Assembly (NCBI GenBank): GCA_018057825.1
Contig: JAGPCY010000006.1
Location: 186,001-250,000, forward strand
Length of the DNA: 64,000 nt
Source of the DNA: Kofleriaceae bacterium
GTDB lineage: Bacteria; Myxococcota_A; Polyangia; Haliangiales; Haliangiaceae
Direction of reading: 5' to 3'
Of this stretch, positions 4,246 to 64,000 are shown piece after piece (position 1 is the first letter of the stretch; every line of letters starts with the position of its first letter). Made by a program: the position numbers and the translations under genes. The notes under the pieces were generated by a model, which was not told the origin of the DNA, did no database searches, and worked only from the letters and a program-made list of their open reading frames with translations.

Positions 4246-5685
4246 TCATGGCGCCCGTCCCACGAGCTTGTCGTAGACGAACTCGTAGCGCCGGGTCTGG
4301 CGCTCCCACGAGAAGTCGACCGCCATGCCGTTGTCGACCAGCCGCGACCACGCCGGGGCGTCGCGGTAGGTGGCGAGCGCGGCCTGGAGCGCCCAGCGCA
4401 AGCCGGCGGCGTCGGGGTGCTCGAAGACGAAGCCGGTGCCGGTCCGGGTCTGGCTGTGCCAGGGCCGCACGGTGTCGGCCAGGCCGCCGGTCTTGTGGAC
4501 GATCGGCGGCGTGCCGTAGCGCAGGCTGTACATCTGGTTCAGGCCGCACGGCTCGTAGCGCGACGGCATGAGGAACAGATCGGCGCCGGCCTCGATGCGG
4601 TGGGCCAGGGGGTTGTGGAAGCCCTGGTAGAAGCAGACCTGGCGCGGGAACGCGCGCTGCAAGCGGGTGAACATCTCCTCGAGGCCGGGCTCGCCGCTGC
4701 CCAGCACGACGAGCTGGAAGCCGAGGCGGGTCAGGAGCGCCGGCGCGACCTGGCCGACCAGGTCGAAGCCCTTCTGCCCGACCAGCCGCGAGACGATGCC
4801 GACCACCGGCACGCCGGGCACGTAGGGCAGGCCGAGGGACTCGAGGAGCGCCTGCTTGCACAGCTCCTTGCCGCGGCGATCGCTGGCGCTGTAGCGCGCC
4901 GGCAGGTGGCGATCGCGCTCGGGCGACCACTCGTCGTAGTCGACGCCGTTCAAGATGCCGACCACCGTCGACGAGCGGGCGCGGAGGAACCCGTCGAGGC
5001 CGGCGCCGTGGGCCGGGGTCTGGATCTCCTGAGCGTAGGTCGGGCTGACCGTCGACACGCCGTCGGCGTAGAGGATGCCCTGGAGCAGGAAGTTGACCCG
5101 GCCGGCGCGCAGGAGCTCCTGATGGAACAGGTGGGCGACGTGGGTGAGGTTGGTGTCGGGCCCGATCGTGTCGGGGAAGCCGCCCTGGTAGTTGAGGTTG
5201 TGGATCGTGAGCAGCGAGCGGGCGCCGCCGACGTAGCGATCGCGGGCGTAGCTGGTCTTCAGCAGGAGCGGGATGAGCGCGGCCTGCCAGTCGTGGCAGT
5301 GGACCACGTCGGGGGCGAAGTCGAGGCGCGCGCACAGCTCGAGCGCGGCGTAGGACAGGAGCAGGAACCGGCGGTGCTCGTCGGCGTCGTTGGTGTAGAG
5401 CCGGCCGCGGGCGTACAGCGCCGGGCAGCGCAGGAAGTAGATCGTCGGGCCGCCGCCGACCGCGAGGACCTGGACCTGGTAGCGGTGGGGCCCGAGCGCG
5501 ATCGCCAGGTCGGCGACCGCGGTCAGGGTCAGCCCGTCGAGCTTGGCGGTGTCGTAGAGCGGCACGACGATCCGGACGTCGTGGCCGCGTCGGGCCAGGG
5601 CCTTGGGCAGCGCGGCGACGACGTCGCCCAGGCCACCGGTCTTGGCGAACGGCGCCAGCTCCGACGCGACGAACAAGAGCTTCAC
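4246..5685 (-). CDS. glgA: Glycogen synthase (GT5, ADP-glucose type)
   Basis: 479 residues, the normal bacterial GlgA length. The N-terminal KTGGLGDVV motif (residues ~15-23) is the ADP-glucose-binding hallmark of GT5 enzymes; FAPDVVHCHDWQAALIP and the C-terminal PSRYEPCGLNQMYSLRYGT with HKTGGLADTV are further family signatures. It transfers glucose from ADP-glucose to the non-reducing end of an alpha-1,4-glucan in the cytoplasm. It is the first gene of a minus-strand run with two ATP-grasp ligases, an S51-like protein and an esterase. No other glycogen genes (glgB, glgC, glgP, glgX) are visible nearby, which is unusual for a plain glycogen operon. A 94-base gap separates it from the next upstream gene. 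Confidence 0.97.
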   Translation of the reverse strand: MKLLFVASELAPFAKTGGLGDVVAALPKALARRGHDVRIVVPLYDTAKLDGLTLTAVADLAIALGPHRYQVQVLAVGGGPTIYFLRCPALYARGRLYTNDADEHRRFLLLSYAALELCARLDFAPDVVHCHDWQAALIPLLLKTSYARDRYVGGARSLLTIHNLNYQGGFPDTIGPDTNLTHVAHLFHQELLRAGRVNFLLQGILYADGVSTVSPTYAQEIQTPAHGAGLDGFLRARSSTVVGILNGVDYDEWSPERDRHLPARYSASDRRGKELCKQALLESLGLPYVPGVPVVGIVSRLVGQKGFDLVGQVAPALLTRLGFQLVVLGSGEPGLEEMFTRLQRAFPRQVCFYQGFHNPLAHRIEAGADLFLMPSRYEPCGLNQMYSLRYGTPPIVHKTGGLADTVRPWHSQTRTGTGFVFEHPDAAGLRWALQAALATYRDAPAWSRLVDNGMAVDFSWERQTRRYEFVYDKLVGRAP

Positions 5686-5779
5686 GAGCCCTGCACGATA
5701 TCAGACCACCGCGATCGACCGCGACCGCGGCGCGGCGGTTTGCGCCGATCGATCGCGCGGTCGGGGCGCCGACCGCGGC

Positions 5780-6718
5780 TCACCACCAGGCGGCGATCGC
5801 GGTCGCCAGCGGTCCGGCCAGGCGCGCGACCTGGGCCGGGCCGATCGCCATCTCGGCGAAGGGCGACCACGGCGCGGCCAGCAGATCGCGGCGGACCTCG
5901 AGGCACAGGGTCCGGCCGGGGAGGGCCAGGACGTGGGCGTGGGCCTGGGTCGACGGGTGCAGCGGGTAGGTCGCGCCGTCGGCGACCTCGAGGCCCAGGG
6001 CCGCGACCGCGCCGCGCAGGGTCGCGACCACCGCGGTCGGGGCGTGGTCGACGCCGTCGGGGGTGGTGGCGATGACGTCGAGGGCCGGGCGCAGCGGCCA
6101 GGTGTCGACGCGGTCTGGGGCGTAGGCGGCGCGCAGGTTGGCGACGATGTCGTGATCGACCTGGACGTCGACGGTGCGCGGCGCGTAGGTGTGGAGCATG
6201 ACCATCGCGCCGTCGGCCGCCAGGGCGGCGCGGGCGGCGGCGACGGTGGCGACGTAGCCGTCGAAGGCGGCGCGCAGGAGGGCGCGATCGTCGTCGGTCG
6301 CGATCCACGGCATCAGGCCGGGGCCGACCTTGCCGGCGCGGAAGTCCTCGGGCGACGCGTCGATCTGGCGATTGCAGTCGATGAAGGTGCGCGGCACCCG
6401 GCAGCGCACGATCGCGACCGCGCGGCGCGGATCGGCGGCGACCAGCGCCGCGGCGGTGGCGGTGGCCAGCTCGGGCGCGCCGGCGTCGGTGTTGACGTGA
6501 AAGAAGTCGACCAGGTCGGGCGGCAGCGGGCTTCCGAGCTGGGCCGCGTAGTGATCGTAGTCGGCGGTCCGGGTCGCGCCGTGGGGGATCTCGATCAAGA
6601 GGTCGAGGTCAGGGCCGGCGGCGGCGCCGCGGTGGATCGAGACCTCGACGACGTGGGGGATGGACGGCGGCAGGGGCACGGCGCGACCTTGCCATGATCG
6701 CGCCCCCCGCGCGCTCAC
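5780..6718 (-). CDS. N-formylglutamate amidohydrolase-like hydrolase
   Basis: Up to 312 residues. Motifs of the HutG/FGase family (PF05013-like) are visible: IEIPHGAT near the start, FHVNTDAGAPELA, the signature VPRTFIDCNRQID around residue 110, and a late AHAHVLALPGRTLCLEVRRD. Known members are zinc-dependent and hydrolyse N-formylglutamate or other N-acyl amino acids; related proteins of this size are often only annotated by fold. The longest start is a GTG at 6718 that overlaps the stop of the upstream lipoprotein gene (GTGA), which suggests coupling; a second GTG 13 codons later, closer to the conserved region, is equally possible. There are no histidine-utilisation genes nearby, so the substrate is open. 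Confidence 0.75.
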   Translation of the reverse strand: MSARGARSWQGRAVPLPPSIPHVVEVSIHRGAAAGPDLDLLIEIPHGATRTADYDHYAAQLGSPLPPDLVDFFHVNTDAGAPELATATAAALVAADPRRAVAIVRCRVPRTFIDCNRQIDASPEDFRAGKVGPGLMPWIATDDDRALLRAAFDGYVATVAAARAALAADGAMVMLHTYAPRTVDVQVDHDIVANLRAAYAPDRVDTWPLRPALDVIATTPDGVDHAPTAVVATLRGAVAALGLEVADGATYPLHPSTQAHAHVLALPGRTLCLEVRRDLLAAPWSPFAEMAIGPAQVARLAGPLATAIAAWW

Positions 6719-7575
6719 CGCGCGGTCGATCGCGTGACGTAGATCGGGCGCTGGCTGCCGACCAGGAGCTCGATCGGGCCGTGGGGGCCGAGGACGTTGG
6801 CGCGCGCGAACCGGGTCACCGTCGAGGTATGGGACTCGAGCCCGCTCGAGGCCTCGGGCAGCGCCGACACCAGGGCGCCCGGGATGATCAGCTCGCCGTC
6901 ATCGTCGGTCTCGCACAGGAGCATCGCCTCCCACGGCGCGCCGTGCCAGCCGACCAGGAGCGCGACCTGGATCTCCCCGCTGCCCGCCGCGGTCCAGGTG
7001 ATCGTCGCCGGCTCGCCGTCCCGCAGGGTCAGCGATTGGGTCGCGCCGAGCAGCGGCGCTGGGCCGGTGAAGGTCGCCGAGAAGCCGGGGATGGTGGCGC
7101 CGGGCGCGGCGATCGTGATGGTCGCGCCGGCGTCGAACAGATCCTGGGGCGGCGCCGGGGTCGGCTCGTAGCCGAACTCCCCGGGCACGAAGGCCAGCGG
7201 CTGGCGCAGCCCGGTGACGGTGATGCGGCCGACGTCGACGGTGCGTGGCCACGGGTGGCAGGTCCCGCTCTCGCACACGCCGTCGCAGCTCGGGGTGCAC
7301 AGCGCCGGCGCGGGCCGGCGGTAGACCGCGCAGTCGCCGGCGGTGGCGATCACGGTCGGGATCGGCCGCTCGGGTCCGTCGGCGATCGCCGCGAACACGC
7401 CGAGGAACACCCCGCCCTCGACGACGTTGACGTAGCCGGCGCGGTCGGCGTGGAAGTCGCCCGGGCCGGCGTCGAGGACCGGGCCGGCGTCGGGGCTACC
7501 GGCGCCGTCGTCGCCCCCGCAGCCGAGCGCGAAGGCGCCCGCGGCCAGCGCGAGCGAGCGTAGGATCGTGGCCAT
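6715..7575 (-). CDS. Secreted lipoprotein, unknown function
   Basis: 286 residues if started at the ATG at 7575 (MATILRSLALAAG), with an in-frame ATG six codons earlier at 7593. A short hydrophobic signal ends in a lipobox FALGCG, so the protein should be lipidated and exported. The mature N-terminus is Asp/Gly/Ala-rich (DDGAGSPDAGPVLDAG), a linker type seen in other lipoproteins of this window. The middle has a Cys cluster (CTPSCDGVCESGTC) likely to form disulfides, and the rest is beta-rich with Thr/Gly/Pro. I recognise no catalytic motif. It is transcribed away from, and nearly abuts, the plus-strand lipoprotein gene at 7748. Confidence 0.7.
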   Translation of the reverse strand: MATILRSLALAAGAFALGCGGDDGAGSPDAGPVLDAGPGDFHADRAGYVNVVEGGVFLGVFAAIADGPERPIPTVIATAGDCAVYRRPAPALCTPSCDGVCESGTCHPWPRTVDVGRITVTGLRQPLAFVPGEFGYEPTPAPPQDLFDAGATITIAAPGATIPGFSATFTGPAPLLGATQSLTLRDGEPATITWTAAGSGEIQVALLVGWHGAPWEAMLLCETDDDGELIIPGALVSALPEASSGLESHTSTVTRFARANVLGPHGPIELLVGSQRPIYVTRSTAR

Positions 7576-52386: not shown

Positions 52387-54162
52387 TCAGCCGGCCCAGG
52401 TGTAGGTGGTGCCGCGGGCCTTGCCGTGGGTGTGGACCTGGCCGGCGGCGATGAGGTCCTGGAGGGCGGCGCGGACGGCGGCGGGGGCGAGGCCGGTGGT
52501 CTGGGCGATGGCGGCGGCGGTGAGGCGGCCGTCGGATTGCTGGAGGGCGGCGACGACGAGGTCCTGGGCGGCGGGCTCGGGGGCGGCGCGCTCGCGACGC
52601 TCGAGGGCGTGCTGAAACAGCGGGCCGCTCTCGGCGGCCTGGGCCAGGGTGATGGGCGGCGCGGCGTAGGTCGGCGCGGGGGCGGCGGCGCGCGACCGAC
52701 GCGCGACCGGAGCCTCCTCGGCCTTGGCGGCGCGGAGGCGTGCGAGCAAGACCTCCGCGGGCTCGTCCGCCGGATCTTGCGGGACGAGCTCGCCGCGGAA
52801 GGCCTTGGCGAGGGCGGCGCGTTCGGCGAGTTCAAAGGCGTCTCGGGCCGCCTTCGTGTGCCCTGCAAGTCCACTGGCGGCCTCGAGCAGTGCGCGGGTG
52901 AGGCCGACGAGCACATCTTGCTCTTCCCTCGGCGGCACAGGGAACGGAAGAGGTCGGAGGCGCTCGGACGTAAGGTGCGCGATATTCACGGTCTGGGAAG
53001 ATGCGCGCTGGAACAGGCCAGTGAGCAGGTGGTGCATGAACACGAGCTGCGCGTACGCGGGCGACACAAGGGCGTCATGTGCGCGGAACCGATGAACCGT
53101 TGCCTGGATGCACAGGTCGTCTATTCCGCCGTGATAGATGGCGCTTTGGCCGACCTTCTCGGGGCTCTGTCCCTCGCTGAGGATGATGTCTCCGGGCTCA
53201 AGCCGGTACAGAGAGAGTTCCTTCGCATCGAACGGCATCTCCTTGAGATCATCCAAGTCGAGGCGATCGAGCTTCACGTTGGCGACTCGGATGTACTTCT
53301 TCAGCGCACGGCCTTCTTCGCCCGCGATGTATTCGCTATCGGCGCGGCGTCGGCCCAGTAGGACGTCGCCGACCGACTCGATGGTTGACCAGTGCCAACC
53401 GGCGGGTAGCGACGTTGGCGGCAGCGGGCTGCTGCCGCTCCTCGGCGAGGCTCGTCGTGTACTTCCGTTGTTGCGAGTTCGTGCGAAGTAGCGCTCAAGC
53501 AACGCGCTGGCCGGCTCGACGTCGGGGTTGGCGGCGCGCCAGTCGGCGGTGAGGTCGCCGCGGAAGGCGGCGGCGAGGATGGAGCGCTTGAGCTTGTCGA
53601 TGAGCGCGGGGAGGCGTTCGAGGCGGGCCTTGGCGGCGCGGGTCTGCGCGAAGACCTCATCGAGCTTCGCGACGATGCGGCGCTGCTCATTGAGAGGCGC
53701 CACGCGAACTTCGACCCGCCGGATGTCATCCAGGCTGAGCCCCGCCTTCGTGGCGCCCTTGCGAAGTGCGACTAGCTTGCTGCGTCCAGGACCAGCGAGT
53801 TGCCAAGCGAGGAACTCGTTGCAGAGTCCGTTCTGCGGACGCGCCAGTGCGATGTGCTGGTTGACGTACGCCTCGCCGAGGTCGGGCGGGACGATCGCGA
53901 CGCGTCCGATCTCCGCCGTGATCGATATCAGAATGTCGCCAGGCCGCAGTGCGGTGCGCGCTCCTTCCGCCCCACTTGGGGGCTGGACGCGCTGCACGTT
54001 GGCAAGACTGAGATCGATCGCCTGGTCCCGCATGTTGCCGATGCGAACGAACAGGGGGCCGACGTCCGAGTAGTGTTCGGCCCAGCCGCGCGACCCGCTA
54101 GTAACGACTCCGAAGAGGCGCCCTGCTTCGGCCTTGCTCCAGCCGTTCGGTAGCGCAGTCAC
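52387..54162 (-). CDS. hsdS: Type I restriction-modification specificity subunit HsdS with extra winged-helix-like tail
   Basis: 591 residues from a GTG at 54162 that overlaps the hsdM stop (GTGA). Two target-recognition domains are seen, residues ~1-150 (LPNGWSKAEAGRLFGVVTSG ... LNEQRRIVAKLDEVFAQ) and ~250-440 (LPAGWHWSTIESVGDVLLG ... PPREEQDVLVGLTRALL), each followed by a conserved helix ending in AAAFRGDLT or AKAFRGELV. Together they read a split DNA target and hold the HsdM dimer. The last ~90 residues (AAQDLVVAALQQSDGRLTAA and GLAPAAVRAALQDLIAAGQVHTHGKARGTTY) form a winged-helix-like domain not usual in HsdS. GC drops in the second recognition domain. Confidence 0.92.
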   Translation of the reverse strand: MTALPNGWSKAEAGRLFGVVTSGSRGWAEHYSDVGPLFVRIGNMRDQAIDLSLANVQRVQPPSGAEGARTALRPGDILISITAEIGRVAIVPPDLGEAYVNQHIALARPQNGLCNEFLAWQLAGPGRSKLVALRKGATKAGLSLDDIRRVEVRVAPLNEQRRIVAKLDEVFAQTRAAKARLERLPALIDKLKRSILAAAFRGDLTADWRAANPDVEPASALLERYFARTRNNGSTRRASPRSGSSPLPPTSLPAGWHWSTIESVGDVLLGRRRADSEYIAGEEGRALKKYIRVANVKLDRLDLDDLKEMPFDAKELSLYRLEPGDIILSEGQSPEKVGQSAIYHGGIDDLCIQATVHRFRAHDALVSPAYAQLVFMHHLLTGLFQRASSQTVNIAHLTSERLRPLPFPVPPREEQDVLVGLTRALLEAASGLAGHTKAARDAFELAERAALAKAFRGELVPQDPADEPAEVLLARLRAAKAEEAPVARRSRAAAPAPTYAAPPITLAQAAESGPLFQHALERRERAAPEPAAQDLVVAALQQSDGRLTAAAIAQTTGLAPAAVRAALQDLIAAGQVHTHGKARGTTYTWAG

Positions 54163-55622
54163 ACGCCCTCTGACGGCGCGCCTTGGGAGTCATTGCCCAG
54201 CAGCTCCTCCAGCGCGGCCAGATCCGCCAGCGCGCCCTCGAGCTCGCCGCGGATCTCCGCAGCGATCTCGGCCGGATCGCCCAGCGCGCTCTCGTCGTGG
54301 GCGTCGTCGTCTTTCAGCCAGGTCAGGTCGAGGTTGTCGTTGCGCTTGGCGATCTCGTCGCGGGTGAACGCGCGCCAGCGGCCCTCGGGCCCCTCGTCTT
54401 TGCGCTTGCTCTTGCCGCTCGGGTCCGCGCCGTAGGCGGCCACGAAGGGCCGCAGGTAGTCGGCGGTGAAGAGCGTGCGCTTGCCGAAGGCGGGAGCGTT
54501 GGTCCGCAGGTCGTGGACCCAGACCTTCTTGGTGTTGCCCTTCTCGGTCTGGCCGCGGGTGAAGAAGAGCACGTTGGTCTTCACGCCCTGGGCGTAGAAG
54601 ATGCCCGTCGGCAACCGGAGGATCGTGTGCAGGTCGCACTTGTCCATCAGGTCGGCGCGGATCTCGCGGCCCTTGCCCTCCTCGAAGAGCACGTTGTCGG
54701 GCAGCACCACCGCGGCGCGGCCGCCGGGCACCAGGCCGCGGTAGATGTGCTGGAGGAACATGAGCTGCTTGTTCGACGTCTGGTAGGTGAGGTCGGTGCG
54801 GCTGCCGCCGCCGGCGCCCTTCTTGGTGCCAAAGGGCGGGTTGGTCAGGATCACGTGGGCCTTGGGCAGCTTCTCGCCGTCGGCGGACAGCGCGTCGCCG
54901 ATGCGCACGGCGCCCTCGCCCACGCCCTCGATGTCGTGGAGCATGCAGTTCATGAGCGCCAGGCGTCGGGTCTCCGGCACCAGCTCGATGCCCACGAAGG
55001 CCTTGGTCTTCTGGAACTCCTGCGCGGTCACGCCCAGCGTGAAGTGGTCGTCGGTGTGCCGCTTCACGTAGGTGTCGGCCGCGATCAGGAAGCCCGCCGT
55101 CCCGGCCGCCGGGTCCTGCACGATCTCGCCGGCCTGCGGCTTCATCACCTCGACCATCGCCTCGATCAGCGGGCGCGGCGTGAAGTACTGGCCGGCCCCG
55201 CTCTTGGTCTCGCTGGCGTTCTTCTCGAGGAGCCCCTCGTACATCGCGCCCAGGCCGTCGGTCTTGGCCGAGAACCAGTTGAGGTCGTCGATCGCGCCGA
55301 CGAGCTGGGTCACGAAGCGCGGCTCGCGCAGCGCGGTCTGGGCGCCGGTGTAGATGGCCTTGACCAGCGGGTCCTTGGCCCGACCCAGTTTGAGCAGCAT
55401 CGCCTTGTAGGCGTCGAGCTGATCGCCGCCGGGCGGCAGCGCCTTCAGATCGTCCCAGTGACAGCCGGCGGGCAGGCGACCGTCCTTCTCGGTCTCCTTG
55501 GCCATCTTCAGGAACAAGAGCAGCGTCAGCTCGGTGACGTACTGGTGATACGAGATGCCGCCGTCGCGGAGGAGGTGGCAGAGGTTCCAGAGCTTGGTGA
55601 CGATGTCGCCGGTCGAGGTCAC
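54159..55622 (-). CDS. hsdM: Type I restriction-modification methyltransferase HsdM
   Basis: 487 residues from a GTG at 55622. The N-terminal helical domain (LWNLCHLLRDGGISYHQYVTELTLLLFLKMAKE) is followed by the SAM-binding motif DPAAGTAGFL (motif I) and the catalytic NPPF (motif IV, near residue 260). GQYFTPRPLIEAMVEV is the typical 'YTPR' region before it. It transfers a methyl group to adenine N6 within the site set by HsdS. It lies 3 bases after hsdR and overlaps hsdS by four bases, so all three form one operon. Confidence 0.96.
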   Translation of the reverse strand: MTSTGDIVTKLWNLCHLLRDGGISYHQYVTELTLLLFLKMAKETEKDGRLPAGCHWDDLKALPPGGDQLDAYKAMLLKLGRAKDPLVKAIYTGAQTALREPRFVTQLVGAIDDLNWFSAKTDGLGAMYEGLLEKNASETKSGAGQYFTPRPLIEAMVEVMKPQAGEIVQDPAAGTAGFLIAADTYVKRHTDDHFTLGVTAQEFQKTKAFVGIELVPETRRLALMNCMLHDIEGVGEGAVRIGDALSADGEKLPKAHVILTNPPFGTKKGAGGGSRTDLTYQTSNKQLMFLQHIYRGLVPGGRAAVVLPDNVLFEEGKGREIRADLMDKCDLHTILRLPTGIFYAQGVKTNVLFFTRGQTEKGNTKKVWVHDLRTNAPAFGKRTLFTADYLRPFVAAYGADPSGKSKRKDEGPEGRWRAFTRDEIAKRNDNLDLTWLKDDDAHDESALGDPAEIAAEIRGELEGALADLAALEELLGNDSQGAPSEGV

Positions 55623-55625
55623 GTA

Positions 55626-58600
55626 CTACGCTGCCCTTTCGTCGTTCCAGACCTCGTCGCCGAGGTCGTCCATCACTTGCTTGAGCCGGCCGCCGAGGGC
55701 CTGATCGACGCCCTTCCAGCCGCCGGCGTTGGCGAAGGCGCCCTTGCGGAAGGCGTCCTCGTCGACCACGGTCTCGAGCTTCATCTGCTCGGCGATGCGC
55801 TCGAGCCACCGCCTCTGCGGGTTGGTCCAGGTGCCGGTGGCCAGCACCTTGGCGACCGCGCGGTCGACGCGCTGGGCGTAGGGCACGAGCGGCGAGCCCA
55901 GCGCGCGCTGGCGGATGAACCCGATGATCGTCGCGGCGATGTCCTGGTTCTTCCAGTCCTTCCACGCCCGCTTGACGCTGGTCGGGGAGAAGCCGGCGGC
56001 GGTGAGCTTGGCCGAGAGCTCGGCGAGCTGGGCCCGGGTCAGGTCGCGCGGGCGGGTGCACACCACGCGCAGCGCGTCGAGCTGGTTGCGGTGGTCCTCG
56101 ACGAAGCGGGTGAAGGCCTCGAGGTAGTCCTCGGGGCGGGTCTTGCCGTGGCCGTAGTCGTGCTCGACGGCGATCACCTCGTCGGCGTGGGGCGCGATGA
56201 TCGCGGTCTTGCCGGTGCCGGGCGGCGCCGACAGGCGGTCGAGGAGCGGCACCAGCTCGGGCTTGGCGGTGAAGAGCGCGATCGCGCCGGCGGTGCCGGC
56301 GGTGTGCAGCACCTGGGGCAGCTCGGCGAGGGGCGCGCCGAGGGTGGCCTCGAGGGACTCGATGGTGGCGGCCAGGTCCTCGCTCGGCGTGGCCTTGGCG
56401 ATGCGGCGGACCACGCGGCGCAGGCGCTCGACCACGTCGCGCAGGACCTCGTCGGCGTGGCTGCGGCCGGCGTCGTGGCCGGCGGCGGTGAGGGCGCGCG
56501 GATCGAGGAGCTCGGTCACCAGCTCGCGGGTGGTGCGGCTGACGTTCTTGACCAGCGGCTTCATCTCCGAGACCGGCGCCAGCACGTCGTACAGGCCGAC
56601 CGCGTCGTAGATGTGGAAGGCCTCCTTGCCGATCTCGGGGCACAGCCGGGTGGCGCGGCCCAGCATCTGGTCGTAGAGGATGCGGCTCCGGATCCGGCGC
56701 AGGAAGACGATGTTCGAGACCCGCGGCACGTCGACGCCGGTCGACAGCAGGTCGACGGTGACCGCGATCTTCGGCAGCGCCTCGTTCTTGAAGCGCGCGA
56801 TGGCGTCGTCGACGCGATCGGTGGCGCCGGTGATCTTCTGGACCACGGCGTCGTCGATCGGACCCCAGGCCGCGGTCAGCGCGGCCTTGAGGATGGGGAC
56901 CAGGCGCTCGGCGTGGTCGTCGTCGACGCAGAACACGATGGTCTTGGCCTCGCCGTGGGGGTCGAGGTGCTGGGCCAGCTCCTCGGCGACGGCGCGGTTG
57001 AAGCCATCGGTGATGACGGTGCGGTTGAAGCTCGCGACGTCGAACGCGAGCTCGTCGGGCAAGAGCGCGAGCTGGGTCTCGCCGCGGCCAAGGTAGGTCT
57101 CGACCTCGGCGCCCTTCTCGAACGTGATGCCGTACTTCGCCAGCCGGGTCGTGATGCGCACCGGCGGCTCATGATCGACCAGCCAGCCATCGGCGACCGC
57201 CTGGGGGTAGCTGTAGACGAAGACCGGCGCGCCGAAGATCTCCAGGGTGTGCTGGGCCGGAGTCGCGGTGAGGCCGATCTTCACGGCGTCGAAGTGATCG
57301 AGCACGCGGCGGTAGGTCGAGACGTAGTCCTCGAAGCCGCGCAGCTCTTGCTCGCCCTCGGTCATCTCGCGATCGAGGGTGTAGCCGCGGTGGCTCTCGT
57401 CGATGATGACGCAGTCGTAGCGATCGATCGGGACCGGGGGCTCGTCGGGCGACGACCACAGGATGCGCTTGACCATGCCCTGCACGGTGGCGACGTGGAC
57501 CATGGTCTCCTTGGCCGGGGTGGCGCCGGCCAGGCCCATGACGTCGTAGTTCTGGGCGAAGGTCTGCAGGTTCTCGAGGCGCACCTCGTGGAAGGCATCG
57601 TAGGCCTGCTTGCCGAGGGTGCCGCGATCGACGAGGAACAAGACGCGGCGGAACCGCTGGCTCTTGAGCAGGCGATGGATGAGGCCGATGACCGTGCGGG
57701 TCTTGCCGGTGCCGGTGGCCATCGCGACCAGGAGCGCGCGCTGGCCGCGGCCGAGGGCGGCCTCGACGGCGGTGATGGCGCGGACCTGGTAGGACCGCAG
57801 GTCGAGGGCCTGCTGGAGGGCGTCGGTCGGCTCGGCGGCGAGCTTGGCCTGGGCGGCGGCGGGATCGTGGGCGCGCAGGTGGAGCAGCGCCTCGGGGGTG
57901 TGCCAGCCGGTCAGCGCGCGCGGGTGGTTGGTCGGGTGACGCGCGTCGAGGAACCACACGCCGCTCTCGGTCTCGAGCTGGCGCAGGTACGGGCGGCCGT
58001 TGGTCGCGTACAGGAACGGCACGTGGTAGCGGTCGGCGGTGGCGCTGCCGGTGGCGGCCAGCGTGGTCGACCAGCTCATCGGGCCTTCGGCGGCGTGGTC
58101 GGCGAGCGGCGGTGACAGGGTCGCGGCGAGGCCACGGGCGTAGCGCTTGGACTGCTCGAGCGTCGACGGGACCTTCTTGCCCTGCTTCTTGGCCTCGACG
58201 ACGGCGTAGGGGACCAGGCCGATGAACAAGACGTAGTCGGCGCTGCCCTTGCCGTCGGCCTTGGTCCAGGTCGGCACCTCGGCGATCGCGCGGTGCTTGC
58301 CCTTCTCGGGGCGGGCGCCTGCGGCCCAGCGCAGCGCGCGGCTGTCGACCTCCCAGCCGGCGTCGCGGAGCTGGGCGTCGATGAGCACGCGGGTCTCGGC
58401 CTCGTCGAGCTCGGTGGCCTTGGCGGCGGCGGCGGACTGCTCGACGATGCGCTCGGTGGTCCCGGTGGGGGCCCGGGCGGCCTCGGCGGCGGCGGCCTCG
58501 ACGAGCGCGGCCTGCGCGGCGGCGGCCTGCGTGAGGTCCTGCTCGTAGGCGTGGGCCAGCGTCTCCCATTCGCGGCGCTCGGCCTCGGCGGCGGCGCGCA

Positions 58601-59177
58601 GCGCGGCCTCCTCGTCGCGGCGCGCGGCCTCGGCCTCGAGGAGGAGCCGGGCCTTGTCGGCGTCGGCCTTGTGGGCGTCGGCCTCGGCCCGCGCCTTGGC
58701 CGCTTCGTCCCGGAGCGCGCGCAGGGTCGCGGTCGGGTCGGGCGGCGGCTGGTAGACCGGTGGCTTCCACGCGGTGCGGGCGTGGCTGTCGCCGAACGTG
58801 CGGTGGAACCAGCAGGCGAGCTTGAAGCCGACCTGCAGGCCGTTCAGGGCGTCCTGGTGATTGCCGACGAAGTCGTGGTTCGCCTTGTTCCCGGCCTTGC
58901 GCAGCACGTGGAAGATCTCGGCGATCTGATCGCGGACGATGCCGCGCTGCTCGAGGAGCCGCAGCAGATCGATCTGGTTGACCGCGCCGTCGCGCCCGTC
59001 GGGCATGAGGTTGGCGCGCGCCGCGGCGTAGCGCGCGAAGGCCTCGGCGAGCTGGCGCAGCGACACCAGGGTCAAGCTCGGATCGATCGCCAGCGTGCGC
59101 TCGGCCGCGGTGGCGAGGCGCAGGTACAGCGGCCCGTAGGGCGCGAGGAAGGCGAAGCTGGAGGCGGGGCTGTCCAT
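55626..59177 (-). CDS. hsdR: Type I restriction enzyme HsdR (endonuclease/translocase)
   Basis: 1183 residues, complete. An N-terminal DUF4145-like region (AFARYAAARANLMPDGRDGA ... ADEVHKIR-type helices) and a long Ala/Glu-rich coiled coil (residues ~150-260) precede the nuclease core DYVLFIGLVPYAVVEAKKQGK (D ... E-x-K). The SF2 motor follows with Walker A MATGTGKTRTV (near residue 488), DESH in IIDESHRGY (DEAD-box II) and GLTATPAQ (motif III); VDLLSTGVDVPRVSNIVFLR and QMLGRATRL are motifs V and VI. It translocates DNA and cuts unmethylated targets. It is the first gene of the operon. Confidence 0.96.
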   Translation of the reverse strand: MDSPASSFAFLAPYGPLYLRLATAAERTLAIDPSLTLVSLRQLAEAFARYAAARANLMPDGRDGAVNQIDLLRLLEQRGIVRDQIAEIFHVLRKAGNKANHDFVGNHQDALNGLQVGFKLACWFHRTFGDSHARTAWKPPVYQPPPDPTATLRALRDEAAKARAEADAHKADADKARLLLEAEAARRDEEAALRAAAEAERREWETLAHAYEQDLTQAAAAQAALVEAAAAEAARAPTGTTERIVEQSAAAAKATELDEAETRVLIDAQLRDAGWEVDSRALRWAAGARPEKGKHRAIAEVPTWTKADGKGSADYVLFIGLVPYAVVEAKKQGKKVPSTLEQSKRYARGLAATLSPPLADHAAEGPMSWSTTLAATGSATADRYHVPFLYATNGRPYLRQLETESGVWFLDARHPTNHPRALTGWHTPEALLHLRAHDPAAAQAKLAAEPTDALQQALDLRSYQVRAITAVEAALGRGQRALLVAMATGTGKTRTVIGLIHRLLKSQRFRRVLFLVDRGTLGKQAYDAFHEVRLENLQTFAQNYDVMGLAGATPAKETMVHVATVQGMVKRILWSSPDEPPVPIDRYDCVIIDESHRGYTLDREMTEGEQELRGFEDYVSTYRRVLDHFDAVKIGLTATPAQHTLEIFGAPVFVYSYPQAVADGWLVDHEPPVRITTRLAKYGITFEKGAEVETYLGRGETQLALLPDELAFDVASFNRTVITDGFNRAVAEELAQHLDPHGEAKTIVFCVDDDHAERLVPILKAALTAAWGPIDDAVVQKITGATDRVDDAIARFKNEALPKIAVTVDLLSTGVDVPRVSNIVFLRRIRSRILYDQMLGRATRLCPEIGKEAFHIYDAVGLYDVLAPVSEMKPLVKNVSRTTRELVTELLDPRALTAAGHDAGRSHADEVLRDVVERLRRVVRRIAKATPSEDLAATIESLEATLGAPLAELPQVLHTAGTAGAIALFTAKPELVPLLDRLSAPPGTGKTAIIAPHADEVIAVEHDYGHGKTRPEDYLEAFTRFVEDHRNQLDALRVVCTRPRDLTRAQLAELSAKLTAAGFSPTSVKRAWKDWKNQDIAATIIGFIRQRALGSPLVPYAQRVDRAVAKVLATGTWTNPQRRWLERIAEQMKLETVVDEDAFRKGAFANAGGWKGVDQALGGRLKQVMDDLGDEVWNDERAA

Positions 59178-59325
59178 GGCCGACGCGAGGCGGCAGTGTA
59201 TCGCGGCGGCGCCGGCCCGGGCGGTCGGGCGCGGCGCCGGAGGGTCACCCCGGGCCGGCGAGGCGCGAGGAGCGCGACCGCGGGGCGGCTTGTCGAGGGC
59301 GCGCCTCGAAGGGCATGTTCGGCGG

Positions 59326-60378
59326 ATGGCACCGCCGACGCCGGCCGAGCTCGACGCCCACCGCCCGGCGTTGACCGGGCACGGCTATCGCATGTTGGGT
59401 TCGGCGAGCGACGCCGAGGACGCGGTCCAGGAGACCTTGCTGCGCGCGTGGCGCGCGGCCGAGCGGTTCGAGGGGCGCGCGGCGCTGCGCACGTGGCTCT
59501 ATCGGATCGCCACCAACGTCTGCCTCGACCTGCTGGGCGCCGACGCGCGGCGGGTGCGGCCCTACGAGCTGGGCGCGGCGATGGCCCTCGACGCCCCGGA
59601 CCTGACCCAGCTCCCGGCCGAGCGCTGGGTCGAGCCGATCGCCGACGCGCGGGTGATCGACGCCGACGCCGGCCCCGGTGAGCGAGCGCTGGCGCGCGAG
59701 CGCGTCCGCCTGGCGTTCGTGGCGGCGCTCCAGCACCTGCCGCCGCGCCAGCGCGCCGCGCTCCTGTTGATGGAGGCCGGCGGGCTGTCGGTCGAGGAGG
59801 TCGCGGCGACGCTCGACACGACGGTGGCGGCGGTGAACAGCGCGCTACAGCGCGCGCGGGCGACCCTGGCGTCGCGCGCCGCCGAGGCCGACGCCGCGTC
59901 GACGCCGGCCGACGCTGGGCTCGTGGATCGCTTCGTCTTGGCGTTCGAGCGCTACGACCTCGACGCGCTGGCTCGGCTCCTGTGCGAGGACGCCAGGCAG
60001 AACATGCCGCCGTACCGCATGTGGCTGCAGGGGCGCGCGACGATCGCGGCCTGGATGGCCGGGCCCGGCGCGGGTTGCCGCGGGTCGCGGCTGGTGGTCG
60101 GGCACGCCTGCGGTGGCCTGGCCCTGGCCCAGTATCGGCGCGCGGCCGAGGTGCCGCGCGGCGGGCCCGAGGGTGGTCACGCGGCCTGGGCGTTGATCGT
60201 GCTGGAGGCCCGGGGCGGGGAGGCGAGGGGTGGCGAGGCCCGGGGTGGAGAGATCGCCGGGTTGACGTATTTCCTCGACGTCGAGCGCGCGTTCCCGCAG
60301 CTCGGGCTGCCGCTGGGCCTCGCCCCGGGGGCGCCGGCCCCCGCCGACGGTCCGTTCTTTTTGCCGCCGGACCGATGA
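59326..60378 (+). CDS. ECF sigma factor of the SigG/TIGR02960 type with SnoaL-like C-terminal domain
   Basis: 350 residues from the ATG at 59326; the frame extends upstream but overlaps the hsdR start. Region 2 (GHGYRMLGSASDAEDAVQETLLRAWRA) and region 4 (ALQHLPPRQRAALLLMEAGGLSVEEVAATLDTTVAAVNSALQRARATL) are standard. Between them, WVEPIADARVIDADAGPGERALARERVRLAFVAALQ is the linker seen in the SigG/TIGR02960 group. The C-terminal ~150 residues resemble a SnoaL/NTF2-like domain that regulates these sigma factors in place of an anti-sigma factor. A short EARGGEARGGE repeat is inserted in it. A VOC protein gene follows. Confidence 0.9.
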   Translation: MAPPTPAELDAHRPALTGHGYRMLGSASDAEDAVQETLLRAWRAAERFEGRAALRTWLYRIATNVCLDLLGADARRVRPYELGAAMALDAPDLTQLPAERWVEPIADARVIDADAGPGERALARERVRLAFVAALQHLPPRQRAALLLMEAGGLSVEEVAATLDTTVAAVNSALQRARATLASRAAEADAASTPADAGLVDRFVLAFERYDLDALARLLCEDARQNMPPYRMWLQGRATIAAWMAGPGAGCRGSRLVVGHACGGLALAQYRRAAEVPRGGPEGGHAAWALIVLEARGGEARGGEARGGEIAGLTYFLDVERAFPQLGLPLGLAPGAPAPADGPFFLPPDR

Positions 60379-60432: not shown

Positions 60433-60852
60433 ATGTCCCTGACCCGCCCTCGCAAGGTCTTCGTCAACCTCCCGGTCGATGACCTGCCCCGCGCCAAGGC
60501 GTTCTTCGCCCACCTCGGCTTCGCGTTCAACGCCCAGTTCACCGATGACAACGCCGCCTGCATGATCCTCAGCGACGAGGGGTACGTGATGCTCCTGCGG
60601 CGCGAGTTCTTCCGCGGCTTCACCCAGCGAGCGGTGGCCGACGCGTCGTCGCCGACCGAGGTCTTGATCGCGCTGTCGTGCGACAGCCGAGCCGAGGTCG
60701 ATCAGCTCGTCGAGCTCGCGCTGGCCCACGGGGGCACGGCGGCGATGCTAGCGATGGACCACGGCTTCATGTACGCGCGCTCGTTCTACGATCCGGACGG
60801 CCACCACTGGGAGGTCCTGTGGATGGACCCGGCCCACGTGCAGCCGACCTGA
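60433..60852 (+). CDS. VOC-superfamily (glyoxalase/lactoylglutathione-lyase-like) protein
   Basis: 139 residues. The pattern KVFVNLPVDDLPRAKAFFAHLGFAFN at the start and FYDPDGHHWEVLWMDP at the end are the two arms of a VOC fold; H and E in HHWEV would be metal ligands. Proteins of this subgroup are common neighbours of SnoaL-type ECF sigma factors, and here the gene starts 54 bases after the sigma-factor stop, so joint transcription and perhaps control by that sigma factor are likely. The substrate is unknown. Confidence 0.88.
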   Translation: MSLTRPRKVFVNLPVDDLPRAKAFFAHLGFAFNAQFTDDNAACMILSDEGYVMLLRREFFRGFTQRAVADASSPTEVLIALSCDSRAEVDQLVELALAHGGTAAMLAMDHGFMYARSFYDPDGHHWEVLWMDPAHVQPT

Positions 60853-60877: not shown

Positions 60878-61972
60878 TCAGAACAGCCGAGCCAGGACGT
60901 CGCCGGCGCGCACCGCCTCGGGGCCCGCGCCGCCGACGGCGTCGAGGACGGCGCGCAGGTCACCGCCGGTGGCGATGGCGGCGTCGAGGGCCTCGCGGCG
61001 ATGGTGGGCGACGGCGACGAGCTCGCACCGGGCGTGACCCTGAGCGACGCACCGGACCTCGCGCATGGCCAGCGGGCGGCCCGAGGCGTGGGCGAGGAGC
61101 GCGCGCACGACGCCGCCGAGGAGCTGACAGCGCGGCTCGGCGCTGGCGCCGGCGGCCTCGGCCAGGGCCGAGCGCTCGAGGGTGATCACGGCGACGCCGC
61201 GCGCGACCGCGGCGGCCGAGGACACGTCGATGCGGACCTGGCCCCAGCCGTCTTGCTCGAGGTACGCGCTCACGAGCGCCATGGCCTCGTCGAGGGGCAG
61301 GTCGGCGAGCCGGCGATCGCGGCGCTCGAGGAGCTCGGCGTCGAGATCGATCGCGGCCAGGCGGCCCCAGCGCAGGCCCCACTCGGCGGCGAACAGGCTC
61401 CAGCCCTGGGGCGCGATCTTGTCCCAGGTCAGGCGCAGCGCGCGCAGCGCCGCGACCGGCAACACGACCACGCGCTGCTCGCCGTCGTCGCGGCGGATGC
61501 CCAGCGCGTCCTCGCCCGGGACCAGCTCGGCCTGGCGCGGCGCCGCGACGGGCGCGAAGGCCGGCCGCGGCGGGCGGAAGCGCAGGCGGTTGATGCACAG
61601 GTAGAAGCGGCCCGGGGTCGGCGCGCGCACCAGCTCGACGTCGACCTCCTGGGCGCCGAACTTGAAGTCGAAGACGTAGGGGAACGACAGGCGCGGCTCG
61701 CCGCCGCGGACGAAGGCCGTGAACCGCCCGAGGAACTCCGGGGTCGCGGTGCACGGCGCGATCTCCTTGAAGAACCCGCGGCCGAGGACCTTGCTGCGGT
61801 CGAGGCGGGCCAGCCGCGCCTCGGCCAGGTTGTAGCGGAGGATCGTGCCGCTGGCGTCGAGGCACACGACGCCGAAGGGCACCTCGTCGAGCTGCGCGTC
61901 GTCGTAGCGGTCGAGGGCCAGGAGATCGATGCCGGCCTCGGTCAGGCCGGCGATGGGCGGCGCGATGGTCAC
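60878..61972 (-). CDS. Photoactive-yellow-protein-like PAS domain fused to a V4R domain
   Basis: 364 residues from a GTG at 61972. Residues ~24-130 align without gaps to photoactive yellow protein at a constant offset of five: DEVPFGVVCLDASGTILRYN, GRGFFKEIAPCTATPEFLGRF, FPYVFDFKFG. Tyr47, Glu51 and Cys74 correspond to PYP Tyr42, Glu46 and Cys69, the last being the residue that carries p-coumaric acid; the equivalents of Thr50 and Arg52 are Ala55 and Leu57. Residues ~220-345 are a V4R (4-vinyl-reductase-type) domain (LSAYLEQDGWGQVRID-like start, CQLLGGVVRALLAHASG, VRCVAQGHARCELV), a small-molecule-binding fold. It looks like a light or redox sensor linked to ligand binding. Start could be some codons off. 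Confidence 0.82.
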   Translation of the reverse strand: MTIAPPIAGLTEAGIDLLALDRYDDAQLDEVPFGVVCLDASGTILRYNLAEARLARLDRSKVLGRGFFKEIAPCTATPEFLGRFTAFVRGGEPRLSFPYVFDFKFGAQEVDVELVRAPTPGRFYLCINRLRFRPPRPAFAPVAAPRQAELVPGEDALGIRRDDGEQRVVVLPVAALRALRLTWDKIAPQGWSLFAAEWGLRWGRLAAIDLDAELLERRDRRLADLPLDEAMALVSAYLEQDGWGQVRIDVSSAAAVARGVAVITLERSALAEAAGASAEPRCQLLGGVVRALLAHASGRPLAMREVRCVAQGHARCELVAVAHHRREALDAAIATGGDLRAVLDAVGGAGPEAVRAGDVLARLF

Positions 61973-62025: not shown

Positions 62026-62076
62026 CGGGGGCGGGATCGAGGTCGGGGGCGGGATCGAGGTCGGGGGCGGGGTCGG
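62026..62076. repeat. 18-bp tandem repeat in a divergent promoter region
   Basis: CGGGGGCGGGATCGAGGT at 62026 and 62044, then a partial third copy from 62062. It lies between the PYP-V4R start (61972) and the protease start (62216). Confidence 0.8.
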
Positions 62077-62080
62077 GGCG

Positions 62081-62215: not shown

Positions 62216-64000
62216 ATGCGAAGGACCTCTGCGATCTTGGCCGCGCTGGCCGCGCTGGCGCTCGCCGCGTGTGGTGTCGAAGCACCCGCGCCGGCCACGC
62301 CCGACGCCGCCGGCTTGACCTCTGTCGATCCGCCGGGGGCCGCGGCGCCCGAGCTGGTTCCGGGCGAGCTCCTCGTCGAACTCACCGCCGCGCCACCGCT
62401 CGGACAGCCGCTGGTCCTCGGCGGCGTCGAGGTCACCCCGGTGTATCGCTTCGTCGGCGGCGCGTACCTGGTGCGGCTGACCGCGCTCGACCGCGCGCGG
62501 GTGGCGCTCGATCCGCACAGCGCGGTGGCGACCACCGAGGCGGCGCGGGCCGCGGTCGCGGTCGATCCGTCGGTGCGGCGGGTGTCGGTCGGCGCCGCGG
62601 TCGCGCTGTCGGCCGAGGTGTCGGATCCGGTCGCGCCGTTTCAGAGCTGGCACTACGGCCAGGTGCATGTCCCGCTGGCGTGGGACGTGACGATGGGCTC
62701 GCCATCGGTGCGCCTGGCGGCGATCGACACCGGCCAGACCGCCCACCCCGACCTGACGTGGTCGCCGGGCTGGGACGCGGTCGACGACGACGCCGATCCG
62801 ACCAACCCGTTCACGTACCACCACGGCACGATGGTCGCGGGGTTGATGGCGGCGCGGGCCAACAACGGGCGCGGCGGCGCCGGCGTGTGCAATGGCTGCT
62901 CGATCCGCGCGCTGCGCGCCGGGATCTGGACGACGTTGGGCCCCCGGGTCTCGCTTCCGGCCGCGGCCGTGGCCCTCGAGCGCGCGGCCGGGACCATCGA
63001 CGGCGTTGCCGGCCCGCGCACCGTCGACGTGGTCAACCTCAGCTTCAACACCATGACGTTCCGCTGCACCGATACCGATCTCGACGTCGAGGCGTTCCGC
63101 GACGCCGTGGCGCTCGCGCGGACCCGGGGCGTCGTGGTCGTGGTGTCGGCGGGCAACTTCGGGCCGGGCGTCACCGGCGCGATCTTCCCGGCCGACTGCC
63201 CCGACGTGATCGCGGTCGCGGCCTCGGCCGAGCAGAATCAGATCCCTGGCTATACCAGCCGCGGTCCGGGCGTCGATCTGGTGGCGCCCGGTGGCGGCTT
63301 CGCCGACGGCGTGTCGAGCATGTTCGGCGCCGACGTGACCACGGAGACGACCGCGCCGTGCCCGCGGATCCCGGGGGACAGTGACCCCTACGTCGGCGAG
63401 CAGGGCATCGTGTCGAGCTGGTCGGTGGCGCGGAGCGGGCCGACGCTGGTCGCGGGCGATCACTGCTACCGCCGCTCGGCCGGCACGTCCTACGCGGCGC
63501 CCCACGTCGCTGGCGTGGCCGGGCTGATGCTGAGCGTACGTCCGAGCCTGACGCCGGTCCAGGTCGAGGCGCTCCTCAAGCTGACCGCCGGCGCGCCGGA
63601 TCCGTGGTGGGGGCTGCAGTGCCCGAACGACGCCGAGTGCGGCGCCGGCCAGCTCCACGCCCAGAGCGCGGTCCTCGCCGCGAGCACCAGCGGCCCGATC
63701 GCCGCCGCCAGCCCGGGGCATCTGCAGTTCGGGACGGTGACCGCGCCGACGACGCTCGACCTGAGCATCCAAAACGTCGGCTTCGCGACCTTGGCGCGCA
63801 CGACCGCGGCGATGGAGCTGCGGGGCGACGCCGCGTTCTCCTTCGGCTACGCCAGCGGCGCGTGTACCAGCGGCACGAGCTGCGGGCGGACGTTCTCGGT
63901 GCCGGTCGGCGGCGCCGCCACGGTGTCGATCCGCTGCGCGCCGGGGGGCGGCGGGGGACTGCGGTCAGCGATGTTGATCGTGCCGACGACCTCGGTCGGG
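62216..64000 (+). CDS. Subtilisin-family (S8) serine protease lipoprotein, 3' end cut by window edge
   Basis: I read 595 residues from the ATG at 62216 (MRRTSAILAALAALALAACG) with no stop before the window end. The lipobox is LAAC (Cys19). A short propeptide-like strand VPGELLVEL precedes the catalytic domain. The triad is D171 in AAIDTGQTAHPD, H203 in YHHGTMVAGL and S425 in SAGTSYAAPHVAG; N314 in SAGN is the oxyanion residue. Cys are frequent (VCNGCS, FRCTD, DCPD) and probably form disulfides. After residue ~500 a beta domain with QNVGFATLART begins, like ASPM/HYDIN-type Ig repeats in myxobacterial surface proteins. It is divergent from the PYP-V4R gene. Confidence 0.92.
   Translation, partial: MRRTSAILAALAALALAACGVEAPAPATPDAAGLTSVDPPGAAAPELVPGELLVELTAAPPLGQPLVLGGVEVTPVYRFVGGAYLVRLTALDRARVALDPHSAVATTEAARAAVAVDPSVRRVSVGAAVALSAEVSDPVAPFQSWHYGQVHVPLAWDVTMGSPSVRLAAIDTGQTAHPDLTWSPGWDAVDDDADPTNPFTYHHGTMVAGLMAARANNGRGGAGVCNGCSIRALRAGIWTTLGPRVSLPAAAVALERAAGTIDGVAGPRTVDVVNLSFNTMTFRCTDTDLDVEAFRDAVALARTRGVVVVVSAGNFGPGVTGAIFPADCPDVIAVAASAEQNQIPGYTSRGPGVDLVAPGGGFADGVSSMFGADVTTETTAPCPRIPGDSDPYVGEQGIVSSWSVARSGPTLVAGDHCYRRSAGTSYAAPHVAGVAGLMLSVRPSLTPVQVEALLKLTAGAPDPWWGLQCPNDAECGAGQLHAQSAVLAASTSGPIAAASPGHLQFGTVTAPTTLDLSIQNVGFATLARTTAAMELRGDAAFSFGYASGACTSGTSCGRTFSVPVGGAATVSIRCAPGGGGGLRSAMLIVPTTSVG

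Follow-up and report, generated by a model that had tools for sequence, protein, structure and literature searches.

A photoactive yellow protein domain fused to a V4R domain in a Kofleriaceae bacterium, and a candidate Ser/Thr kinase partner in its relatives

Is the protein encoded at this locus a true photoactive yellow protein (PYP) that could sense light, and if so, to which protein would it signal? The window, i.e. the whole stretch of 64,000 nucleotides that was analysed, carries near its end a gene for a PYP-like domain joined to a V4R domain. Fusions of this type are already known, with 20 published cases (Dohmen et al. 2025, J Bacteriol, PMC12826048), and the abstract of that paper states the downstream partner of PYP as an open gap. 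The reading that is modestly favoured here is that of a soluble two-module photosensor signalling by protein contact, in relatives with a Ser/Thr kinase.

Domains of the PYP-V4R protein and its relatives

The gene lies on the minus strand, which corrects the initial annotation on this point. Its features are as follows.

60878..61972, minus strand: PYP-V4R gene encoding 364 aa, from a GTG start codon at 61972 to a stop codon that ends at 60878
61583..61951, minus strand: PYP domain (aa 8-130) with an N-terminal cap as in H. halophila PYP; model, alignment and fold match
61832-61834, minus strand: Tyr47 codon, equivalent to PYP Tyr42; ungapped alignment
61820-61822, minus strand: Glu51 codon, equivalent to PYP Glu46; ungapped alignment
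61751..61753, minus strand: Cys74 codon, equivalent to PYP Cys69, the expected chromophore thioester site; ungapped alignment
60977..61513, minus strand: V4R domain (aa ~154-332) with the fold of the MopR/DmpR/PoxR sensor domains; PF02830 and structure match
61025..61129, minus strand: zinc-site signature C282-x22-E305-x2-C308-x7-C316, equivalent to MopR C155/E178/C181/C189; alignment, ligands according to PMC7264223 and PMC10715001

Residues 8-130 of the window protein are a true PYP domain by family and fold. As the initial annotation had described, residues 15-124 of H. halophila PYP align with residues 20-129 of the window protein at a constant offset of five and without any gap (phmmer, E ~2e-22). 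Tyr42, Glu46 and Cys69 are indeed kept as residues 47, 51 and 74, and the characteristic F-F-K-x-[IV]-A-P-C-T stretch is present as FFKEIAPCT. The same annotation had made its reading depend on a comparison of PYP and generic PAS models and had called for a structure prediction. The PYP model TIGR02373 scores 104.5 bits (E 4e-30), against 29.8 bits for PAS_4 and 24.6 bits for PAS, so that the refuting outcome named there, a PYP model no better than generic PAS models, did not occur. In the AlphaFold2 model of the protein (25 homologues, mean pLDDT 87.8, pTM 0.81), predicted residues 8-130 match solved PYP structures with a Z score of 18.4 and an rmsd of 2.0 Å over 121 residues, N-terminal cap included. 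Because 104.5 bits is below the TIGR02373 equivalog cut-off of 143.05 bits, the window protein is left out of this narrow equivalog, which stands for the classical PYP. With its 4 seeds, this model retrieves only about 20% of PYP homologues; the family itself is defined by similarity together with Cys69 (Xing et al. 2022, PMC9664959). By this definition the window protein belongs to the PYP family, with a similarity beyond that of generic PAS domains, Cys69 accompanied by Tyr42 and Glu46, and the PYP fold.

The V4R domain that had been proposed as fusion partner was also found, with 41.8 bits for PF02830 (cut-off 31). Predicted residues ~154-332 match the sensor domains of MopR, PoxR and DmpR with Z scores of 16-17 (16.9 for MopR). 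The PYP domain stands N-terminal to V4R in a single chain, which is the definition of a PYP-V4R fusion (Dohmen et al. 2025).

Relatives were found with an alignment query, which returned 30 loci; a single-protein query of the same genome collection returned none. Genome contigs and class-wide genome searches provided 26 further homologous fusions, about 41-50% identical, that form with the window protein an alignment set of 27. Their hosts are Polyangia, Kofleriaceae, Archangium, Corallococcus, other Myxococcota and two MAGs labelled Acidobacteriota. The same fusion is borne by G012 and L098 (Kofleriaceae MAG in the family group of the window genome). One contig (locus L020, G033:C382) has two PYP-domain matches, separated by about 600 bp.

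Chromophore pocket, chromophore supply and the V4R ligand site

The chromophore pocket of PYP is lined by Ile31, Tyr42, Glu46, Phe62, Val66, Ala67, Pro68, Cys69 and Phe96 (Dohmen et al. 2025, PMC12826048). The corresponding nine residues of the window protein are Val, Tyr, Glu, Phe, Ile, Ala, Pro, Cys and Phe. Thr50 and Arg52 of the classical protein are replaced by A55 and L57. This substitution had been noticed in the initial annotation and stands, whereas its supposed oddity does not, Ala50 and Leu52 being the published family consensus; the Ala50 PYPs measured to date absorb at 435-465 nm (Dohmen et al. 2025, PMC12826048).

Among the 27 fusions, Tyr42, Glu46, Cys69, Phe62, Phe63, Ala67 and Phe96 are invariant. 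In unfused PYP-like domains of the same bacterial family (loci L008-L013, from other genomes), the Cys69 position is occupied by Gly or Ile where it could be aligned. Since the Tyr, Glu and Cys are invariant in the fusions and the Cys is lost in these unfused domains, the chromophore pocket of the fusions appears to be under maintaining selection. The suggestion of a light-gated regulator in the initial annotation is retained as the leading hypothesis, whereas that of a pigment-linked one is without support. Position 100 is also Phe in all 27 fusions; it is Met in classical PYP and His in many other myxobacterial PYPs. A catalytic role in re-isomerisation has been proposed for Met100 (Xing et al. 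2022, PMC9664959), and the Phe100 fusions may accordingly recover slowly in the dark.

The source of the chromophore is less straightforward. The sole PF00221 match in the window genome (G000, 8.9 Mb) is HutH (680 bits, cut-off 539), encoded beside hutU. It is the only aromatic ammonia-lyase there and no tyrosine ammonia-lyase (TAL) was found in this genome, nor any match at 1e-30 to TIGR02372, the p-coumarate:CoA ligase (pCL) of the PYP-activation type. The genome search proposed in the initial annotation thus returned only HutH. With neither gene found, an in-house supply of the chromophore is unsupported, the search covering TAL and, among CoA ligases, the PYP-type pCL. These two genes commonly accompany a functional PYP but do not define it. 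The chromophore might be made from imported p-coumarate or with the help of a moonlighting HutH, or the thioester ligand might be a different one.

The last of these belongs to an alternative that we consider unlikely, in which the PYP-type pocket would carry another acyl or aryl thioester, or serve as a thiol or redox sensor with a V4R role similar to that in MsvR, instead of acting as a p-coumarate photoreceptor. The missing TAL and pCL agree with it, as does the single MIO lyase in 16 of 17 fusion-bearing genomes. However, PYP genes commonly lack a linked TAL: it is present in no more than about 5% of pyp operons, and environmental uptake has been proposed in the literature. In the pocket itself, Pro68, adjacent to the chromophore Cys, is replaced by Arg or Lys in 10 of the 27 fusions (L098, L106, L101, L096, L109, L066, L102, L103, L095 and L108), a change compatible with another ligand or a redox function, but none of the 27 fusions departs from Tyr42 and Glu46, jointly known to hold the phenolate. 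MsvR is an archaeal redox regulator with a V4R domain. The V4R domain of the fusions is Cys-rich and matches MsvR weakly (E 2e-4), yet the NCBIfam MsvR model, whose cut-off is 220 bits, gives 21 and the four V4R zinc ligands fit a structural zinc site. The p-coumarate photoreceptor is kept as the preferred reading of the pocket.

The zinc signature C-x22-E-x2-C-x7-C was whole in the nine fusions first examined, and its ligands, counted per position, are kept in 25-26 of the 27. C282, E305, C308 and C316 coincide exactly, with identical spacing, with MopR C155, E178, C181 and C189. In MopR-type sensors the matching site, made of three Cys and one Glu, is structural (PMC7264223, PMC10715001). 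Of the two marks of an XylR/DmpR-type sensor, the Cys3-Glu zinc site is therefore present and the phenol-anchoring His/Trp pair is missing. An alignment with PoxR, uncertain by about two residues in the Trp region, places Ser235 and Ile263 at the anchor positions of the window protein; the fusions have Ser, Ala or Gly in place of the His and, with the same uncertainty, mostly aliphatic residues in place of the Trp. The fusion V4R has the build of a phenol sensor and its zinc site, but without the anchor it was not placed in that class. Binding of aromatic ligands, which the initial annotation had mentioned for V4R in other proteins, is without support here. A role as 4-vinyl reductase, an enzyme to which the same annotation had related V4R, was also considered and not retained: the model of BchJ (bacteriochlorophyll 4-vinyl reductase) is missing from the NCBIfam matches up to E 1.

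The same anchor positions bear on the idea of a two-input sensor, in which V4R would bind a phenolic compound as in MopR/DmpR, possibly p-coumarate or a lignin-derived phenol, and integrate it with light. The nearest V4R structures are indeed those of the phenol sensors, the zinc site is exactly kept, and with no TAL the cell might depend on a phenolic taken up from outside to make the chromophore. The absence of the residues that anchor the phenol hydroxyl makes this idea improbable in our view, and the photosensor signalling by protein contact is preferred to it.

A Ser/Thr kinase gene next to the fusion in relatives

Of 29 fusion loci, 17 carry a gene for a Ser/Thr kinase (Pkinase, PF00069) immediately upstream of the fusion and in the same orientation. 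Spacing was measured in 16 of these pairs. In nine, the fusion could start at a codon that overlaps the kinase stop by 4 bp; nearly all the others have a start within 10 bp of this stop, and one lies 50 bp away. In the Kofleriaceae locus L098, for example, the kinase gene occupies 5019-5957 and the fusion 5968-7053. In most of the relatives, the kinase and PYP-V4R genes form a conserved and apparently translationally coupled pair. Any kinase was found near only 3 of 48 unfused PYP loci, none of them scoring like the paired subfamily (fusion versus unfused, Fisher p 6e-7, uncorrected for relatedness). The unfused, Cys69-less PYP-like loci L010 and L012 adjoin generic Ser/Thr kinases. On the tree of the fusions, kinase adjacency changes three times and is clustered, which indicates few independent events, so that the locus counts overstate independence.

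Sixteen of the 17 paired kinases are short, soluble enzymes of a single subfamily and have HRD/HGD and DFG motifs; the kinase of L105 is a different and longer enzyme outside it. Leave-one-out scores of fifteen paired kinases range from 318 to 408 bits, and that of L066 scores 404 bits. A clean gap between these scores and those of all other kinases was expected and is absent: in a search of 144 genomes, scores of up to 339 bits were obtained for generic kinases from other families, and the catalytic domain by itself therefore cannot delimit the paired subfamily. At the C-terminus, 13 of 15 paired kinases and none of 47 control kinases show the motif hydrophobic-D-x-L-I-R-x-K-L, which was derived from the same paired set in which it was counted. 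This tail is a predicted helix that follows a variable linker of low confidence.

The window locus itself differs from these pairs. Its surroundings are the following.

52387-59177, minus strand: type I restriction-modification genes HsdR (1183 aa), HsdM (N6_Mtase) and HsdS (Methylase_S)
59320-60378, plus strand: ECF-type sigma factor with a C-terminal SnoaL-like domain
ending at 60852, convergent with PYP-V4R: glyoxalase-family gene
62216-64000, plus strand, divergent from PYP-V4R: subtilase (S8 peptidase) with a lipoprotein-like signal

The restriction-modification genes stand past the sigma-factor and glyoxalase neighbours, and a G-rich tandem repeat is seen near 62030-62080, between the PYP-V4R and subtilase genes. 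No kinase gene adjoins PYP-V4R at this locus. The window genome has at least 153 Ser/Thr kinase matches, of which the best reaches 273 bits on the paired-kinase profile; none of them extends into the tail motif, and an unlinked partner was thus not found among them.

It might then be asked whether the window copy is an orphan relic that, deprived of its kinase and of its supply of chromophore, no longer works as a photosensor. The lack of an adjacent kinase, of a close kinase relative and of TAL and pCL in the genome would fit, as would the fact that the fusion was not found in other genomes of the same genus. Yet the reading frame is open, the invariant residues of both domains are intact, and kinase-less fusions persist in Archangium and Corallococcus as well. 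Of all the readings weighed here this is considered the least probable. No common alternative partner was seen beside the kinase-less loci, whose neighbours are a PLP enzyme, an outer-membrane efflux protein, a cyclase-domain protein and unmatched open reading frames.

For the favoured contact-signalling photosensor, we infer chromophore identity, photocycle, dimerisation and kinase regulation as follows. The chromophore would be a thioester of p-coumarate or a closely related hydroxycinnamate on Cys74, with hydrogen bonds to Tyr47 and Glu51. Blue light would isomerise the chromophore and lead, as in other PYPs, to proton transfer from Glu51 and partial unfolding of the PYP domain. This change would be relayed to the zinc-bearing V4R domain at the C-terminus; this domain is expected to be dimeric and may bind a hydrophobic ligand. 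Since PYP-V4R has no catalytic output domain, it would signal through contact with another protein. In most relatives, the candidate downstream partner, proposed from gene neighbourhood, is the short Ser/Thr kinase of the overlapping or abutting upstream gene, whose conserved C-terminal tail could dock PYP-V4R. As the adjacent kinase is missing in the window genome, the window protein would act in trans on another Ser/Thr kinase or on a different target. A more specific version, plausible if tentative, is a light- and ligand-gated Ser/Thr kinase complex in which the zinc V4R of PYP-V4R docks the kinase tail, the window copy being an unlinked descendant.

The pair provides a concrete and testable partner in most fusion loci examined, and the kinase tail and the zinc V4R show experimenters which pieces to cut. 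If true, such a light- and ligand-gated kinase complex would be a route of PYP signalling not found in the literature searched. The window copy adds to the Kofleriaceae-type group a member without an adjacent kinase; its missing TAL and pCL sharpen the question of the chromophore source.

Comparison with known light and phenol sensors

The closest known proteins are the PYP-V4R fusions of Dohmen et al. (2025), which share with the window protein the N-terminal PYP and C-terminal V4R order and for which the same proposal was made, i.e. light and small-molecule input without an output domain (PMC12826048). Their main text describes neither a Ser/Thr kinase neighbour nor a zinc site. A Ser/Thr kinase neighbour of PYP was likewise not found in the main texts of both PYP surveys or in full-text searches. 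What is added here to the knowledge of PYP-V4R comprises the kinase neighbour, the zinc site, Phe100 as an invariant residue and the sub-variant with Arg/Lys68.

With H. halophila PYP (1NWZ/2PHY and others), the window protein has in common the fold with its N-terminal cap, Tyr42, Glu46 and Cys69, and the ungapped pocket. It differs by Ala50, Leu52 and Phe100 in place of Thr, Arg and Met, by its fusion to V4R and by the lack of TAL and pCL partner genes. With the XylR-type sensors MopR, DmpR and PoxR, it shares the V4R fold and the Cys/Glu/Cys/Cys set and spacing, whereas the His106/Trp134-type anchor and the AAA+ and DNA-binding domains are missing. In Ppr and Ppd (PYP-phytochrome-histidine kinase or GGDEF/EAL proteins), PYP is also the N-terminal input module of a larger protein. 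In contrast with these, PYP-V4R has no phytochrome, histidine kinase or c-di-GMP domains, and its likely output in relatives is a separate Ser/Thr kinase.
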